From Oscillospiraceae bacterium (GTDB taxonomy: Bacteria; Bacillota; Clostridia; Oscillospirales; CAG-272), in the NCBI GenBank assembly GCA_015064355.1, contig SVSJ01000010.1:1-64000 (forward strand): a DNA stretch of 64,000 bases. The letters run 5' to 3'. Every line of letters begins with the position of its first letter. Position 1 is the stretch's first letter. The notes below the pieces were generated by a model that saw nothing but the letters and a program-made list of their open reading frames with translations, was not told the DNA's origin and ran no database searches. This document shows positions 4,602-12,075 of the stretch, piece after piece. Position numbers and translations under genes: made by a program.

Positions 4602-7007
4602 TTATCTGTTAGCGTTAACTATGGAACAAACAAGCTTGTATGAGTAGTACAGGCTTTGTCCGCAGGAAATAGGGGATTCCAAGTCGAGAACTCCACCCTC
4701 CGCGTCGATCAGTCCCAGGTCATACATTCTGAGAACAGCCCCTTTTATGTGAGCATCGGCGATACCCTTTATATATATATTATCCGCTTCATGATCTCTG
4801 ACCGTTACAAAGGATATTGCATTCAAGTACTTGATCGCACCTGCAACCTCGCCGCTGTAGGGAGAGTTCAAAGCATAGAATTCAGTACCCTCGATCTTGG
4901 TATACAACTCATCTGCGCTGAGGTCTGAACCGTCAAGTCTGATATCTAAAATATCGTATAAAACCTCGTGAACGGTTTTCATTGACTGTACAGTGAAGTG
5001 CTCGTATTGAGGAATACCAAGTTTCGCATAATCGGTTATCATACCGTTTAAATCATATCCTGCTTCTGTGAGAATACGGCGAATTGCAATTTCTGAATAA
5101 CCGTCAATGTTCTGTTTCAGATAATATACCGACTCGTTTTCCCCGGCGTAAGCAGACTTAATAAGACCGTGGAGGATTTTTTTGTCGTTGGGAAACAGAG
5201 TTGGTGAAACAACATATAGACGATCCACATTCTTCAGTTCTTCTTCAGTGAGGGACATTCTGGTGCAAATGGCGTTCATGTTTTCGAGGCTGGACATATC
5301 CACTTCAGTATAGTAGCTGTTCCAGAGGTTTCTTGACTCATCGCTGTCGAGACGCGAGAGTATAAGATTAAACATATCAACAGTATAATACGCCTCAAGC
5401 TTTACGATCGCCCCGGCAACCCCACGATTGTAGCTCTTCAAAAGGACCGCAGCATCTTTTTCAGGGAGGAGCGAAACAAGGGTGTTCATCTTCTCGGCCG
5501 AAATGTACTTGGGCACGAGAGGAAGTGTAGTATTGTTTTCGATTTCAGCTCCATCTGTAAGAATGGCAACTATGCACTGATTAATCAATGCGCAATTCTC
5601 GACTGTGAGAGTCTGGTCGGAACGCAAGGAATCAATACGCTTTGCCACGCCCGGCTCAACGTAATCGCCTTTATGTATGAGACGCTTGAGATTTTCAAGG
5701 CTGCCGTTTCCGATCCTGCCGGAAATCCTGTCGCCGAAATTCTCAAGGATGATTGCGTCTATCTGCTTGAGATAGTAGGAAACCGAAACATTTGAGGTAA
5801 GGTGCATAGTTTGCTCACTCTCACCTGTCATTTCCGAATAGTTCCCGATATAGTCTTTGTATTCGATATTCTGTGAAATGATCGGATTTGTCAGGCACAC
5901 AACGATAATGCATACGCATATCACTGACGACAGGATTCTTGGAAAAAGCTTGTGTTCAAGATTCCTTGAAATACTGCGCAAGCGATCCTTAAGATGGCGT
6001 GCACCCAAAGACATATGACAGCCCGCACGCAAAGTTCTCCTGCCTGAAGCGGAGTTTTCATATATAAATTGCGCGTATTCTGCCCTTCTGACCTCGCTGT
6101 GTGAGATCACGCGGGAGTCACACATTACTTCAATATCCTGCCTAAGTATATCTCTGACGATCCAAAGAAGTGGATTGTACCAGAAAAAGCACGTCATAAC
6201 GGTGGAGAACACCAGGACAAAATTGTCCTTATGCTTAAAGTGGTTAAGCTCGTGAGCAAACACCATTGAAAGCTCGCGATCGCTTATCTTCTCCTGTTCT
6301 CTGTAAACCACAGTGGGAGAAAAGCACCCTACAAGCATTGAGGTAGTTCCGTATCTCAGCGCCGGCACCCTTGATTCCTTGATGCCAAACTTTCTTGCAG
6401 TATCGTAGTACACCGCAAGAACCTTCTCGTCCCGGCATGGCAAAGATGAGGAAAGAGCTGATTTTTTTGCCCTTGAGTAGATGATCCAGTTAATGCCCAG
6501 GGCACAAACGGCACCTAAAGCATAGGTGGCAAGCAGACAAAGATTGAAGGACTCGGCCGCCGCTGCGTTTTCGGATTTGGTTCTGCCCGCATAAAACGCA
6601 TCTGCCAGATATTCGCCAACAGTCTGTCTCACTCCGGTTTCCGGATACAGTTTTTTCGAATACGATGGTTTTGTTGTTTCTTCAACAATTACATCGTTTG
6701 TTCCGCTGACAACATATGGATTGTTAAGCTCTGCCTGAATCTCGTCCTGTCTTGACACTTCTTCGTTAATATTGTTGGTGAGCGTGTACATTATGCTTTT
6801 GCCCGCCGGTATGAAATTATACACCGACACAGCACTTTCAGGAAATATGGGCCAAAGCAAGCGGAGCAGCAATATCACCCACATCACAACTCCCACTCCG
6901 GGAGGAATGACCCATTTGAAAAGCTGCTTAACGCAAATGATTATACAAGCTGTCACCGATGAAAATATTGTTACTTGCATAAGAAGCAACACAAAAAACT
7001 CGGACAT
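4602..7007 (-). CDS. BlaR1/MecR1-like M56 membrane metallopeptidase with a long non-beta-lactamase sensor domain
   Basis: Membrane signal transducer of 801 residues. Hydrophobic segments lie near 5-27, 33-52, 152-175, 263-284 and 356-374. The cytoplasmic zinc protease motif HELNH is at 252-256, with the third ligand probably E293 in DIEVMCD. In known systems this domain inactivates the BlaI repressor after a signal. The C-terminal ~425 residues are exported and lack a visible penicillin-binding SxxK domain. The last ~55 residues (IKGAVLRMYDLGLIDAEGG, then PISCGQSLYYSYKLV) resemble an S-layer-homology repeat, so the ligand may be a cell-wall polymer rather than a beta-lactam; that is inference. 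It lies 48 nt downstream of blaI in one operon. Confidence 0.85.
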   Translation of the reverse strand: MSEFFVLLLMQVTIFSSVTACIIICVKQLFKWVIPPGVGVVMWVILLLRLLWPIFPESAVSVYNFIPAGKSIMYTLTNNINEEVSRQDEIQAELNNPYVVSGTNDVIVEETTKPSYSKKLYPETGVRQTVGEYLADAFYAGRTKSENAAAAESFNLCLLATYALGAVCALGINWIIYSRAKKSALSSSLPCRDEKVLAVYYDTARKFGIKESRVPALRYGTTSMLVGCFSPTVVYREQEKISDRELSMVFAHELNHFKHKDNFVLVFSTVMTCFFWYNPLLWIVRDILRQDIEVMCDSRVISHSEVRRAEYAQFIYENSASGRRTLRAGCHMSLGARHLKDRLRSISRNLEHKLFPRILSSVICVCIIVVCLTNPIISQNIEYKDYIGNYSEMTGESEQTMHLTSNVSVSYYLKQIDAIILENFGDRISGRIGNGSLENLKRLIHKGDYVEPGVAKRIDSLRSDQTLTVENCALINQCIVAILTDGAEIENNTTLPLVPKYISAEKMNTLVSLLPEKDAAVLLKSYNRGVAGAIVKLEAYYTVDMFNLILSRLDSDESRNLWNSYYTEVDMSSLENMNAICTRMSLTEEELKNVDRLYVVSPTLFPNDKKILHGLIKSAYAGENESVYYLKQNIDGYSEIAIRRILTEAGYDLNGMITDYAKLGIPQYEHFTVQSMKTVHEVLYDILDIRLDGSDLSADELYTKIEGTEFYALNSPYSGEVAGAIKYLNAISFVTVRDHEADNIYIKGIADAHIKGAVLRMYDLGLIDAEGGVLDLESPISCGQSLYYSYKLVCSIVNANR

Positions 7008-7055
7008 ATTACTCTCCTGAATAGAGAAATAGCTTGTGGTTATTCTGCTTTGTTA

Positions 7056-7454
7056 TCAGTCCTTGATTCCGTCAAGAATATCCTTGATTTCCTTTTTCTG
7101 CTTTTCTGTCAGCTTGCAGTCGCGAACGAGTGATGCCATAAGATTGTATGCGGAATTGTCAAATACTCTCTCGATGAAGGAATCAACCTCGCACTTGATG
7201 CACTCTGTCTTTGAGGACTTGGGTGTGTACTTGTAAACGCCTGTGGTTTTGTCAATGTTTACAGCGCCCTTTTCCGCAAGACGAATGATGAGGGTTCTGA
7301 TGGTAGTGTTGCTCCAGCCTGTAGGCTCAGCCAGCTTCTGAACGATCTCTCCGAGAGTCATACCTCTCTCGTTGTCCTCGCAGCCGTCCCAAAGCACCTT
7401 CATTATGCTCCATTCAGCCTCAGAGATCTTTACTGTCTTTCTTCTGCCTCTCAT
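7056..7454 (-). CDS. blaI: BlaI/MecI/CopY-family transcriptional repressor
   Basis: Winged-helix repressor of 132 residues. I start at the ATG at 7454, preceded by GGAG with a 9-nt spacer; a longer upstream frame has no ribosome site. Family segments are KISEAEWSIMKVLW, the recognition helix region GWSNTTIRTLIIRLAEKGAV and a C-terminal dimerisation helix ending KKEIKDILDGIKD. It normally binds as a dimer to palindromic operators and is cleaved once its BlaR1 partner is activated. It is first in the operon with the BlaR1-like gene. No beta-lactamase gene is next to it, so the regulated target may be elsewhere. Confidence 0.92.
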   Translation of the reverse strand: MRGRRKTVKISEAEWSIMKVLWDGCEDNERGMTLGEIVQKLAEPTGWSNTTIRTLIIRLAEKGAVNIDKTTGVYKYTPKSSKTECIKCEVDSFIERVFDNSAYNLMASLVRDCKLTEKQKKEIKDILDGIKD

Positions 7455-7486
7455 TTTATATAACTCCTTGATTTTATTATTTTTTC

Positions 7487-7502
7487 GTTCAAAATCATGA
7501 AC
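7487..7502. promoter_or_regulatory. Candidate operator in the blaI leader
   Basis: GTTCA (7487-7491) and TGAAC (7498-7502) form an inverted repeat separated by 6 nt, just downstream of the blaI -10 box. The position suits autorepression, but it does not match the usual TACA-N2-TGTA BlaI core, so the call is weak. Confidence 0.3.
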
Positions 7503-7514
7503 ATATACATAACA

Positions 7515-7543
7515 ATTATACCCTTCATTAAAAAGAATGTCAA
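7515..7543 (-). promoter_or_regulatory. Sigma-A promoter for blaI-blaR1
   Basis: On the minus strand TTGACA (7543-7538), a 17-nt spacer and TATAAT (7520-7515), a perfect consensus promoter that would need repression to stay quiet. Confidence 0.85.
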
Positions 7544-7669
7544 TTAACATTTCCGCCAATAAACTCGTGTGTTTTTTGGACAAAATATCGTCCCTTCAGC
7601 ACGAAAAAACAAAAAATGCTAAAATGAACGAAAAATACCCTTGTTTTTTACCAATTTGTTAGAAATATA

Positions 7670-7697
7670 TTGACTTTTTTCTAAAATAAAGTATAAT
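7670..7697 (+). promoter_or_regulatory. Sigma-A promoter of the pot operon
   Basis: TTGACT (7670-7675), a 16-nt spacer and TATAAT (7692-7697). Transcription should begin near 7704, leaving a leader of about 310 nt before potA. Confidence 0.8.
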
Positions 7698-7704
7698 TGG
7701 TATT

Positions 7705-8013
7705 GCACGATTTTTGCATCTGTGCTGACAAGTTCGTTTGGCGCAAAGGCCAACGGATTCCAAAAACATCACCGCGCACTCAAGCTATCGCGTCAGCGGA
7801 AAGGGAGTGCCAAATTAATTTAATACTGATGTTCACACCCGGCAGTTTTCACAAAACCGGGATGCTATGCATCTGAGAAATCACAGCGACAGGCGGTGGG
7901 TGCACCGTTTTGTAAAAAACTCTTTGCGGGGGCTGTGATTAGTCGAGTGTGGGTTCGCGCAGAGCTGTAATACGGCTATACGTGGTCTTTTGCCGCAAAG
8001 GGGGATGCAAAAA
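7705..8013 (+). ncRNA. Structured leader RNA of potABCD, candidate riboswitch of unidentified class
   Basis: No gene is convincing in this stretch, which is full of complementary segments. TTTTTGCATC (7711-7720) is perfectly complementary to GATGCAAAAA (8004-8013), the bases between the Shine-Dalgarno and the potA ATG. Further helices: TTGGC/GCCAA (7738-7742/7749-7753); AACATCA/TGATGTT (7765-7771/7827-7833) enclosing GCACTC/GAGTGC (7776-7781/7805-7810); a CCCG/CGGG hairpin near 7838-7861; GATGC/GCATC (7861-7865/7869-7873); AATCACAGC/GCTGTGATT (7879-7887/7932-7940) enclosing CGGTG/CACCG (7894-7898/7903-7907); and AGCTGT/ACGGCT (7963-7977). CTTTGCGG (7922-7929) pairs with CCGCAAAG (7993-8000), which overlaps the Shine-Dalgarno and makes a pseudoknot with the 7879-7940 helix. 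TGCATC at 7868-7873 competes with the 5' copy. This suggests translational control of polyamine uptake. I see no motif of a known class. Confidence 0.6.
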
Positions 8014-9159
8014 ATGGAAAAGAAAAAGAATATTGTAGAACTGAAAAACATTACGGTCAGATTCGACGGGGATACCATCCTTGACAACTTGAGTCTGTCT
8101 ATCGGCGACGGTGAATTCGTTACCTTTCTGGGCGCTTCCGGATGCGGTAAGACCACCACTCTCCGACTGATTGCCGGCTTCCTTGAGCCTAACGAGGGAG
8201 AAGTGTTTTTCGATTCGAAGAACATGAGTGGTGTTCCTGCGTATGAGCGTGAGGTTAACACCATTTTTCAGCGTTATGCGCTGTTTCCGCACCTGAACGT
8301 ATTTGAAAATATCGCGTTCGGTCTCAGAATCAAAAAGGTTAAAGAAAAAGAAATAGTTGAGAGAGTTCAGGAGATGCTGGCCCTTGTAAATCTTAAGGGA
8401 TTTGAAAAGCGTACCATCGGCACTCTGTCAGGCGGTCAGCAGCAGAGAGTTGCTATTGCCCGCGCTCTTATCAATCATCCGAAAGTACTTCTTCTTGACG
8501 AGCCTCTGGCTGCTCTTGACCTGAAGCTCCGCAAGGATATGCAGAACGAGCTTAAAGCACTCCACGATCGCACGGGTATCACTTTTATTTATGTTACCCA
8601 TGACCAGGAAGAAGCCCTCTCCATGTCTGACACCATCGTTGTTATGGCAGACGGCAAGATCCAGCAGATCGGCACGCCTACCGACATTTACAACGAGCCT
8701 GTTAACGCTTTTGTTGCGGACTTTATCGGCGAATCAAATATTATCGACGGCATTATGGTCTCCGACTACAAGGCGAGATTTGCAGGTCACACCTTCGACT
8801 GCCTTGACAAAGGCTTTGAACCCGGAGAGTCTGTTGACATAGTTGTTCGCCCCGAGGACGTAGACATCGTACCTGTGGAAAATGGTATGCTCCGCGGTAC
8901 TGTAACCTCTGTTACATTCAAGGGTGTTCACTACGAGATCATCGTGGACATTCAGGGATTCAAGTGGATGATCCAGACCACCGACTACTGTGCGCCTGAT
9001 GCGACAATCGGTCTTTATATCGAGCCTGATGCTATCCACGTTATGAAGAAATCCGAATACTCCAATATGTTCGGCGACTACTCCTCATTCAGTGAAGAAT
9101 TCGACGAGCTTTCCGTTGCGGAAGTTCCGGAAGAGGACGAGGAGGAAACCGAAGAATGA
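8014..9159 (+). CDS. potA: Spermidine/putrescine ABC transporter, ATP-binding subunit
   Basis: Cytoplasmic ATPase that powers polyamine import with PotB and PotC. I start at the ATG at 8014, 9 nt after AAAGGGGG; an ATG at 8005 is too close to that site. Of 381 residues, Walker [10 protein letters not shown] is at 40-48, the ABC signature LSGGQQQR at 138-145, and Walker B VLLLDEP at 158-164, with the D-loop ALDL after it. A TOBE-type regulatory domain occupies about 240-350 ([22 protein letters not shown]). The C-terminus is an unusual acidic tail, EEDEEETEE. Its last bases overlap the potB start (ATGA). Its translation start lies inside the pairing partner of the structured leader. Confidence 0.95.
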
Positions 9160-9980
9160 AGAAAAAGCGCTCATTCCTTGAGGGATTTGCCGCAGTTCCT
9201 CATTCGGCGTGGTGTCTGCTTTTCATAATCGCACCCCTTCTTTTTGTGGTGTACTTCGCGTTTACAGACACATACGGCAATTTTACATTTGATAATATCA
9301 CAATGCTTTCGAGCTACACGCACATCTTCGTGCTGTCCGTTTGCTTTGCACTTATCGCAACGGTTATCTGCCTGATAATCGGATATCCTCTTGCGTTCTT
9401 TATTTCCCAGTGCAAGCCCCAGACACAGAAGATCGTGGTTGTGCTCCTTATGCTCCCTATGTGGATCAGCCTTCTTATCAGAACTTACTCCCTTATGGCA
9501 ATTCTCGATAACGGCGGTCTGCTTAATTCACTTTTCGAAATGATCGGCATCGGCAGAGTCAAGATCATCGGTACCTCCGGTGCGGTTATCCTGGGTATGG
9601 TGTACGATTTCCTGCCCTACATGGTGCTGCCTATCTACACAAGCATTTCAAAGCTTGACCCCAGATATCTGGAGGCGGCAAGTGACCTGGGCTGCAACAG
9701 CGCAAAGACTATGCTTCACGTTGTGTTCCCTCTGTCCGTTCCCGGTATCGTTTCCGGTGTTACCATGGTTTTCGTTCCCTCTATCAGCACCTTCTATATT
9801 TCACAGAAGCTGGGCGGCGGATCTTTCGACCTGATCGGTGACACAATCGAGCGTCAGTTCCAGAACGTAAGCACCTACAACATCGGTGCGGCGATCTCTC
9901 TGGTTATGATGATCCTCATTCTCATATCCGTTGCCATAATGAATAAATTTTCTGATGACGGAGGTGAGATCATCGTATGA
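9156..9980 (+). CDS. potB: Spermidine/putrescine ABC transporter permease
   Basis: Inner membrane permease of 274 residues with about six membrane helices (for example [17 protein letters not shown] near 20-36 and [20 protein letters not shown] near 90-108). The EAA loop that contacts PotA is near 170-185 ([16 protein letters not shown]). The start ATG overlaps the potA stop codon in ATGA, implying translational coupling. The paired permease is potC. The order A-B-C-D is the standard polyamine transporter order. Confidence 0.93.
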
Positions 9981-10816
9981 AAACTCTGTCAAAGATCTAC
10001 ATGTGGGTGGTCTTCGCCCTCCTTTATGCGCCTATTCTGGTGCTGATCCTGTTCTCCTTCAACGATGCAGGCTCACTCAACAATTTTTCAACCTTCTCTC
10101 TCAAGTGGTACGGTGAGCTGTTCCGCGACACGAGAGCCCTTGAAGCCTTAAAAAATTCCCTTTACCTCGCAGTTTCATCTTCACTTCTTGCAACAGTCAT
10201 CGGCACCCTGGCAGCCTTTGCCATCAGCCGTATGCGTTCCAAGTATCTGAAGGCTGCGCTGAAATCCGCAACCAATATCCCTATGATGAACCCGGATATC
10301 GTAACAGGTGTATCAATGATGCTCCTCTTTGTTGCGGCAATGTCTATCCCATTCTCACCACTGAAAAAGCTGGGATTTGCCACAATGCTTATCGCTCACA
10401 CCACATTCAACCTGCCTTATGTTATTCTGTCGGTTCTGCCCCGCTTCCAGCAAATGGACAAGCACTTGACAGAAGCTGCTCTTGACCTTGGTTGCACTCC
10501 CACTATGACTTTCTTCCGTGTAGAGCTTCCCCTTGTGGTGCCGGGAATCGTTTCCGGTCTTATGCTTGGCTTTACCCTGTCACTTGACGACTTCGTAATC
10601 AGCCATTTCGTAAGTTCCCCCGACTTCCAGACCCTTCCCCTCTACGTTTACAACCAGACTGCTCACGAGGTGAAATACAGTATGTATGCCCTCTGCGCAC
10701 TTATGGTGTTCGTAATTCTCCTTCTTCTCCTTGCAGTTAACTTTGCTGGCGGCAAGGGCGAGAAAAAAGTGGAGCGCCCGAGAAAGATCCGCAGAAAAAC
10801 GGGAGGTGCAGCATGA
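9977..10816 (+). CDS. potC: Spermidine/putrescine ABC transporter permease
   Basis: Second membrane subunit, 279 residues, with about six helices (WVVFALLYAPILVLILFSF near 11-29; a last helix ALCALMVFVILLLLLAVNF). The EAA loop TEAALDLGCTPTMTFFRVELP fits the family, as does SLDDFVISHFVSSPD after it. The C-terminal tail is basic (KKVERPRKIRRKTGG) and should lie in the cytoplasm. The start overlaps the potB stop (ATGA, 9977-9980), so the four pot genes form one translationally coupled chain. Confidence 0.93.
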   Translation: MKTLSKIYMWVVFALLYAPILVLILFSFNDAGSLNNFSTFSLKWYGELFRDTRALEALKNSLYLAVSSSLLATVIGTLAAFAISRMRSKYLKAALKSATNIPMMNPDIVTGVSMMLLFVAAMSIPFSPLKKLGFATMLIAHTTFNLPYVILSVLPRFQQMDKHLTEAALDLGCTPTMTFFRVELPLVVPGIVSGLMLGFTLSLDDFVISHFVSSPDFQTLPLYVYNQTAHEVKYSMYALCALMVFVILLLLLAVNFAGGKGEKKVERPRKIRRKTGGAA

Positions 10817-12075
10817 AAAAGATAATTTCTTTGACACTTGCCCTCTTCACCGCTTTCGCACTTCTTTTGGGTGCTACATCCTGCGGTAGCGAAGAAAAGA
10901 ACGAGCGTATCCTTGACGGCGGCGCGCGAACCCTTTACGTTTACAACTGGGGTGAATATATCTCCGACGGCAGCGAAGGTACTATTGACACCAACGCAGA
11001 GTTTGAGAAATACTGCCGCGAGGAGCTTGGTCTCAACGTTACAGTAAACTATTCCACATTCTCGAGCAACGAGGACCTTTACGCAAAGCTTTCAAGCGGT
11101 GCGGTCAGCTACGACGTGGTTATCCCCTCTGACTATATGGTTGCTCGCCTTGCTTCCGAGGGACTTCTCGCAGAGCTTAATCCCGACGACACTATCCCCA
11201 ATTATCAGTACATCTCCGAGGACTTCAAGGGGCTGTACTATGATGAAAACGAGATCTGGTCCGTTCCCTACACCTACGGCACCGTTGGCGTTATTTACAA
11301 CACCGAAATGGTTCCCGAGGATGAAGAAAACCTGGGTAGCTGGGCGCTTATGTGGGACGAGGACTACACAGGAAATATCCTTCAGTTCAACAATTCCCGC
11401 GACGCTTTCGGTACTGCACAGTACTATCTGGGCTACAGCGTAAACTCTGACAACGAAGCAGAGTGGCGGGAGGCTCTTGCTCTTCTCATCAAGCAGAAGA
11501 ACGTGGTTCAGGGATACGTAATGGACGAGATCTTCAACAAAATGAAGGGCGGCAGCGCTGCTATCTCATCCTATTACGCCGGCGACTACTTCACAATGTA
11601 CGCTGACAACGAGCGCCTTGCTTTCTATCATCCCGAAGAAGGCACAAACGTATTCGTTGACGCTATGTGTATTCCCAAAAGCTCGCAGAATTACGATCTC
11701 GCTGTTGAATACATAAATTTCATGCTCACCGAAGAGATTGCTATTGCAAACGCGGAATACATCTGCTATGCTTCTCCAAACTCTCTGGTTTACGAGAACG
11801 AAACGTATATCGAGGATATGACGGAAGTCCACCCCGATGCTATCAGCATTCTGTATGATTTTGATATGTCAAAAATGGAGTTCTATCACGATCTTCCAAC
11901 TGAAACCAGAATGCTTATGAACAGCCTCTGGGAGGATTTGAAGATAGAAAGCAACATCGGCATTGCTATCTACGTCATCTGCGGTGTGATCGTTGCCCTG
12001 GGTATCGCCCTTGTTCTCTACAATATCATCGAGAAGAGACGCCGCAAGTACTATTTCGACAAATACGCAAAATAA
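10813..12075 (+). CDS. potD: Polyamine-binding lipoprotein with an added C-terminal membrane helix
   Basis: Extracellular substrate-binding protein that delivers spermidine or putrescine to PotBC. The signal peptide ends in the lipobox GATSC, so C24 should be lipidated. Mature segments typical of PotD are LYVYNWGEYISDG, VIPSDYMVARLASEGLLAEL, WSVPYTYGTVGVIYN and FIDAMCIP-like VFVDAMCIP. It is 420 residues, longer than the usual ~350: the last 39 residues contain a membrane helix (about 382-405, IGIAIYVICGVIVALGIALV) followed by a basic tail (EKRRRKYYFDKYAK). The protein therefore seems anchored at both ends. The start overlaps the potC stop (ATGA). A strong terminator follows. Confidence 0.93.
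   Translation: MKKIISLTLALFTAFALLLGATSCGSEEKNERILDGGARTLYVYNWGEYISDGSEGTIDTNAEFEKYCREELGLNVTVNYSTFSSNEDLYAKLSSGAVSYDVVIPSDYMVARLASEGLLAELNPDDTIPNYQYISEDFKGLYYDENEIWSVPYTYGTVGVIYNTEMVPEDEENLGSWALMWDEDYTGNILQFNNSRDAFGTAQYYLGYSVNSDNEAEWREALALLIKQKNVVQGYVMDEIFNKMKGGSAAISSYYAGDYFTMYADNERLAFYHPEEGTNVFVDAMCIPKSSQNYDLAVEYINFMLTEEIAIANAEYICYASPNSLVYENETYIEDMTEVHPDAISILYDFDMSKMEFYHDLPTETRMLMNSLWEDLKIESNIGIAIYVICGVIVALGIALVLYNIIEKRRRKYYFDKYAK

Follow-up and report, generated by a model that had tools for sequence, protein, structure and literature searches.

The leader of the potA gene in the window (the whole 64,000-nt stretch of DNA analyzed here) forms a conserved, structured RNA that lies over the ribosome-binding site and whose helices covary across related bacteria. 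We refer to this candidate new class, which presents a type I architecture in the window (positions 7705–8013, + strand; 309 nt), as the potA RNA, based on its conservation and on the lack of a match in Rfam. Structured leader RNAs are known as a general kind, and this class is apparently new. The assignment to a new class of structured cis-regulatory RNA is well supported and nearly certain, and the RNA very probably acts on translation. Our best explanation is a translation-controlling RNA that is stabilized by a polyamine and represses the importer encoded downstream; we give this reading, which makes the potA RNA a candidate polyamine riboswitch, a probability of about 0.6.

The conserved RNA lies between a promoter and the potA start codon. 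The promoter TTGACT-16-TATAAT (7670–7697, + strand; 11 of 12 consensus matches) predicts a transcription start at about position 7704, right where the conserved RNA begins, and many relatives present a similar promoter directly upstream of the RNA. The potA Shine-Dalgarno AAGGGGG was read from the sequence at 7998–8004 (+ strand). The potA gene itself (8014–9159, + strand; start codon at 8014–8016) encodes a polyamine ABC transporter ATPase with scores above the NF043075 and TIGR01187 cut-offs. It is followed on the same strand by potB (9156–9980), potC (9977–10816) and potD (10813–12075), for which PotB, PotC and PotD were the top-scoring NCBIfam models, with scores below the curated cut-offs of these models. 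The locus shares one general feature with riboswitches, namely a structured RNA, conserved among relatives, that precedes genes with a common metabolic role. A scan for intrinsic terminators gave no candidate on the + strand of the window leader, and transcription attenuation was rejected for this reason. Divergent from the pot operon, the minus strand encodes a long membrane protein (4602–7583; named from its sequence alone) in which a HELNH metalloprotease motif of the M56/BlaR1 kind can be read, and this gene adjoins a BlaI-like regulator.

Two long-range helices, H1 and H2, bring the distant parts of the leader to the ribosome-binding site, as the sequence-only reading had proposed. The 5′ strand of H1, UUUUUGCAUC (7711–7720, + strand; TTTTTGCATC in the window), is the exact reverse complement over 10 nt of GATGCAAAAA at 8004–8013, which forms the 3′ strand GAUGCAAAAA between the Shine-Dalgarno and the start codon. 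The 5′ strand of H2, CUUUGCGG (7922–7929, + strand; CTTTGCGG in the window), is likewise the exact reverse complement over 8 nt of CCGCAAAG at 7993–8000, which overlaps the Shine-Dalgarno. The first of these H2 strands lies in the loop of a 9-bp helix, P6, whose predicted pairing of 7879–7887 (AATCACAGC) with 7932–7940 (GCTGTGATT) also holds. Since H2 links the P6 loop with the Shine-Dalgarno it forms a pseudoknot, and H1 closes the whole RNA. The Shine-Dalgarno is flanked by these two helices and falls in part within them. The minimum-energy fold of the leader contains the 10-bp helix and a CUCUUUGCGG/CCGCAAAGGGG helix. The folding energy is just modestly better than that of shuffled sequence (z = −1.9), which is weak evidence alone, and the question was therefore settled by comparison. 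The sequence-only reading had been tied beforehand to conservation of the leader upstream of related potA genes and to compensatory changes in both long-range helices; both were found, and coordinates and comparison together bear out a pseudoknotted leader with helices on both sides of the Shine-Dalgarno.

The GCAUC/GAUGC core of H1 is invariant in 65 of 66 leaders and the remaining one presents a U-G pair. In the diverged type II members, H1 changes on both sides from UUUGCAUC/GAUGCAAA to AAAGCAUC/GAUGCUUU, its flank switches from UUU/AAA to AAA/UUU and, in several of them, this flank pairs across a one-base bulge. All eight pairs of H2 are standard in 66/66 leaders and in 13/13 further ones (two via a G-U pair), i.e., in 79/79. 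Relative to CUUUGCGG/CCGCAAAG, found in types I and III, the diverged members carry the compensatory versions CUUUGUCA/UGACAAAG or CUUUGUUCA/UGAACAAAG, and type II presents CUUUGUCA/UGACAAAG or CUUUGUUC/GAACAAAG, with the exception of one type II member (L095) that retains the strand CUUUGCGG. Across leaders, H2 uses three alternative complementary triplets. Among 15 distinct strand combinations (rows of strands excised and joined), 100% of the cells pair, compared with 84% in shuffled sets, and two-sided changes occur in three pairs. These counts reflect the fact that leaders were located via anchors including GCAUC and CAAAGGGG(G)AUGC, so that only the flanking pairs were free to vary; because the cores (GCAUC in H1, CUUUG/CAAAG in H2) do not vary, covariation is limited to three pairs per helix, and the three H2 versions correspond to only a few independent changes on the potA tree. 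Both helices, with matching two-sided changes, were kept in every relative examined except one. In L176, a member from another family (f77) that is also upstream of potA, H2 is intact and no GCATC strand was found within 560 bases upstream, so the partner strand of H1 is missing or remote.

The position of these helices relative to the gene is also maintained. In every type, the strands of H1 and H2 adjoin the Shine-Dalgarno or overlap with it, and the spacing to the start codon is nearly kept. The potA start codon varies among relatives (ATG or TTG) while the helices stay in place. The Shine-Dalgarno reads AAAGGGUGG in L178, L202–L205 and L207 and AAAGGGG in type III. In most type I members a short hairpin, GCAC/GUGC, carries the 5′ strand of H1 in its loop; we rejected this hairpin as a universal feature, since L021, L060, L093 and type II lack it.

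Between the long-range strands, the leader folds into a series of further helices (all on the + strand). Three of them (P2, P3 and PB) were evaluated by a partner-swap test, in which every 5′ strand was matched against 3′ strands taken from different leaders, with permutations that ignore relatedness. The stem of the P2 hairpin (7733–7757) varies freely and yet covaries (z = −12.3). Its loop GCAAAG (7743–7748), present in 42 of 45 type I leaders, is complementary to CUUUGC of H2 and repeats the GCAAAG of the ribosome-binding region. P3 (7765–7833) pairs AACAUC (7765–7770) with GAUGUU (7828–7833; z = −8.0) and encloses a domain of highly variable length. PB (7834–7951), a long helix absent from the sequence-only reading, pairs CACACcCGGC (7834–7843) with GUCGaGUGUG (7942–7951; z = −7.4) and encloses P4, P5 and P6. 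It reads CACAUGCGUC/GACGUAUGUG in L121 and CAUAUCaGGGC/GCCCGAUAUG in L060, and, by inspection, the sequences of types II and III contain a helix at the same position that also encloses P6. The hairpins P4 (7845–7849/7853–7857) and P5 (7861–7865/7869–7873) follow. P6 presents two-sided changes in five pairs within type I and in six pairs across all types, and contains the P7 hairpin (about 7889–7913). Across types, 8 of the 11 pairs of P6/P7 present two-sided changes, a count as high in 1 of 500 shuffles, and their covariation score was matched by 0 of 500. P8 (7957–7959/7981–7983), P9 (7963–7968/7972–7977) and P10, which pairs GUGG (7982–7985) with CCGC (7993–7996) in 33/33 type I leaders, follow towards the 3′ end. 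Further conserved stretches are the 13–14 nt CUCUUUGCGGGGG(C) and CGCAGAG. An additional pairing, H3 (CUCU/AGAG, 7920–7923/7961–7964; CCCU/AGGG in type II), seemed compensatory but was excluded from the core because it fails in L065 and L071.

P10 is the candidate switch element, as P10 and H2 both use CCGC and are therefore mutually exclusive. The sequence-only reading had assigned a competing role to TGCATC (7868–7873). This segment does pair locally with GATGC at 7861–7865, but it is one arm of P5, whose sequence is unconserved and differs in almost every relative, and P10 is a better candidate for the conserved competitor of the pseudoknot strand. Type II members have P10-like hairpins matched to their own, different H2 strand. 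The compact members L084 and L102 lack P10, however, and type III has only a weak version of it; P10 is therefore perhaps not the switch in all members. In eight leaders of one genus (L016, L018, L021, L023, L024, L063, L068 and L092), the P10 loop holds an extra GC-rich domain of about 90–150 nt (GAGTCCGTCGG...CTCCTGG) that leaves the ends undisturbed.

We infer that control is translational and that an exchange between P10 and H2 acts as the switch. H1, from the 5′ end, and H2, from the central loop, would reach to the two sequences flanking the potA Shine-Dalgarno. When both long-range helices and the covarying core (PB, P6 and P7) are formed, the ribosome-binding site would be buried and the importer would not be made; when the CCGC strand is taken by the local P10, the site would be open. 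In type I only, the P2 loop may hold the H2 loop instead, as a decoy. Spermidine, putrescine or a related polyamine would stabilize the pseudoknotted form, leading to feedback repression of uptake. A polyamine is the natural guess for the ligand because polyamine import is the sole gene association. The window genome (about 80% complete) encodes a protein of the Orn/Lys/Arg decarboxylase family and no spermidine synthase was detected in it, which would fit a cell that has to keep import in balance.

We then analyzed the distribution of the RNA. Within the window's genus, DNA similarity identified the leader in 24 of 25 genomes, immediately before potA, and overall it did so in 59 of 395 family genomes and 12 of 71 genera; all the leaders examined from this search were upstream of potA. 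R1, a covariance model built on the 3′ domain, matched 60 of the 395 family genomes and also found type II, i.e., diverged compact relatives adjoining potA, among the 80 nearest potA genes; 56 of these 80 nearest relatives in the genome collection did not carry such an RNA. With the type II model (R2), the RNA was also detected in another family of the order, where some members represent a third architecture (type III), and the joint core model (R3) added further families. At least five families of one class, Clostridia, were reached (the window's own, f20, f23, f39 and f77). A sixth, f27, is probable: its match (L183) has an E-value of 0.015 but lies upstream of potA with both helices. Every examined match with E < 0.001 was directly upstream of potA, as were several weaker matches that recurred across six genomes from a single genus. 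The RNA adjoins potA in all examined significant matches except L114, in which an insertion puts about 250 bases between the two. This insert (1603–1861) resembles an intergenic repeat (inverted GACCTTTT...AAAAGGTC), and potA has its own Shine-Dalgarno there. Matches without a nearby potA (L179–L182, L184–L189 and L208–L214) had E-values of 0.004 or higher and were taken as noise. We also rejected as a further type the short potA leaders with GGGG(C/A)TGCATAATTG (L085, L091, L103, L107 and L108), which present no structure. Viral contigs contained no exact copy of the 3′ core. The exclusive gene association, with all examined significant matches upstream of potA, raises the likelihood of a riboswitch with a polyamine ligand.

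The 3′ end of the RNA is more conserved than the gene that follows. Type I leaders range from about 270 to more than 500 nt; the first 20–27 bases and the last 110 are the most conserved and the middle varies. The last 97 nt are 80–98% identical vs 64–80% for the first kilobase of potA. The genes that carry the RNA group together on a tree built from 132 PotA proteins (3 changes vs 42.6 when shuffled). The PotA of the window and its two closest relatives are placed, with a starred branch, inside a clade otherwise without the RNA. The other proteins of the window agree: PotB, PotC and PotD are, respectively, 71–86%, 72–82% and 59–73% identical to those of the RNA-lacking clade, and about 50–55%, about 50–55% and 47–52% identical to those of RNA-bearing relatives. 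The leader of the window is of the type of its genus although its potABCD genes (8014–12075; likewise in L003 and L031) are of another potA lineage. This could have come about by replacement of the operon behind a leader that stayed in place, or by capture of the leader. In both cases this implies selection on the RNA as a unit, which behaves as a separate module, and argues against autoregulation by a Pot protein.

The sequence-only reading had presented the RNA as a candidate new riboswitch, and the Rfam scans assigned it to no known class. Against Rfam 15 (4227 families) the whole window gave nothing relevant at gathering score; the window leader had no match at that score and, with E up to 10, just a 20-nt chance match on the opposite strand; eight diverse relatives of types I, II and III had no match. 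The pseudoknot riboswitches preQ1-II and SAM-II hold the Shine-Dalgarno inside their fold. As in these, a pseudoknot strand of the potA RNA overlaps the ribosome-binding site and a separate expression platform would be unneeded. However, they are far smaller than the potA RNA, which spans about 140 to more than 500 nt with two long-range helices flanking the Shine-Dalgarno, and the Rfam scans indicate no sequence relation to them. Four papers checked for polyamine terms (PMC11109978, PMC8632094, PMC8040213, PMC2864571) yielded no such RNA, and a prior description is possible among the 224 candidate RNAs of Weinberg et al. 2017 or in unnamed supplementary motif lists (PMC8040213). The spermidine riboswitch is likewise a leader RNA linked with polyamine genes, through which spermidine turns expression off (Salvail et al. 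2023, PMC10853860). It is a variant of the SAM-I aptamer that acts by transcription termination on biosynthesis genes, whereas the potA RNA matches no Rfam family including SAM, precedes importer genes and lacks a + strand terminator; the SAM-I aptamer fold had no match in the leader even at E up to 10. The potC and potE motifs are also candidate RNAs beside polyamine-transport genes. The marine potC motif (Weinberg et al. 2010, PMC2864571) is an Rfam family, RF01751, whose covariance model the leader did not match. The potE motif was described from Veillonella and environmental samples alone and lies about 200 nt before its gene; its covariation is weak and an expression platform is not evident (PMC8632094). 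In the potABCD operon of Borrelia burgdorferi, spermidine similarly lowers importer expression after transcription initiation; the signal of its potB 5′ RNAs is inside the potB reading frame and tied to premature 3′ ends, and no comparable leader structure is described (PMC10319736).

Several other explanations were weighed. The leader could be a site for a protein (an importer component, a ribosomal protein or a polyamine-responsive protein) that stabilizes the pseudoknot and represses translation. Ribosomal-protein leaders share the position and design of the potA RNA, and the strong sequence conservation of the 3′ domain would also fit protein contacts. We consider this unlikely, since the operon encodes no obvious RNA-binding protein and the form of the RNA was kept in front of a potABCD of another lineage, against Pot autoregulation. 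It is quite unlikely that the fold has no specific pocket and responds to temperature or, as an RNA "ionometer", to non-specific stabilization by polyamines or Mg2+. Polyamines do stabilize compact RNA folds and this architecture is large and pseudoknotted, but conservation in loops and junctions (the P2 GCAAAG in 42/45, CUCUUUGCGGGGG(C) and CGCAGAG) exceeds the needs of base pairing.

A constitutive structural leader, setting mRNA stability or yielding a separate small RNA without sensing, would agree with a promoter at the extreme 5′ end of the element and with its tolerance of domains of variable length. The exact placement of H1 and H2 around the Shine-Dalgarno in all types, and a spacing to the start codon that is nearly kept while the codon itself varies (ATG/TTG), make this very unlikely. 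Control via a leader peptide or upstream reading frame is highly improbable: each leader holds several short reading frames and polyamine-related control by such a frame has been described for the odc1 motif (PMC8632094), but no frame is common to six diverse leaders (L001, L115, L077, L125, L101 and L160), and the indels of all lengths and the paired covarying changes are typical of RNA. Finally, the folding energy alone is unremarkable (z = −1.9), as expected of chance complementarity without function, but this explanation is already refuted because the helices are conserved across families with matching changes on both sides.

The polyamine-stabilized, translation-controlling RNA remains our preferred reading. 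In its fullest form, it has about an even chance of being correct: a new riboswitch class, unrelated to the SAM-I-derived spermidine riboswitch, in which a polyamine-stabilized double long-range pseudoknot folds in the Shine-Dalgarno and controls import, as a module kept by or captured by an unrelated pot operon. Claims that RNA can sense polyamines selectively have a long history and have met with doubt; only one class is accepted, a rare variant of SAM-I that controls biosynthesis (PMC10853860). If our reading is true, polyamine sensing by RNA becomes directly testable in gut and rumen Clostridia, and the potA RNA represents a large new fold in which two long-range helices enclose the ribosome-binding site. 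Even with another ligand, it would constitute an orphan RNA class with a single clear gene association. The smallest members, of about 140 nt (L084, 2858–2998; L102, 2862–2998), lack P8, P9 and P10 but retain H1, H2, PB, P6 and P7, and constitute the best start for structure work.
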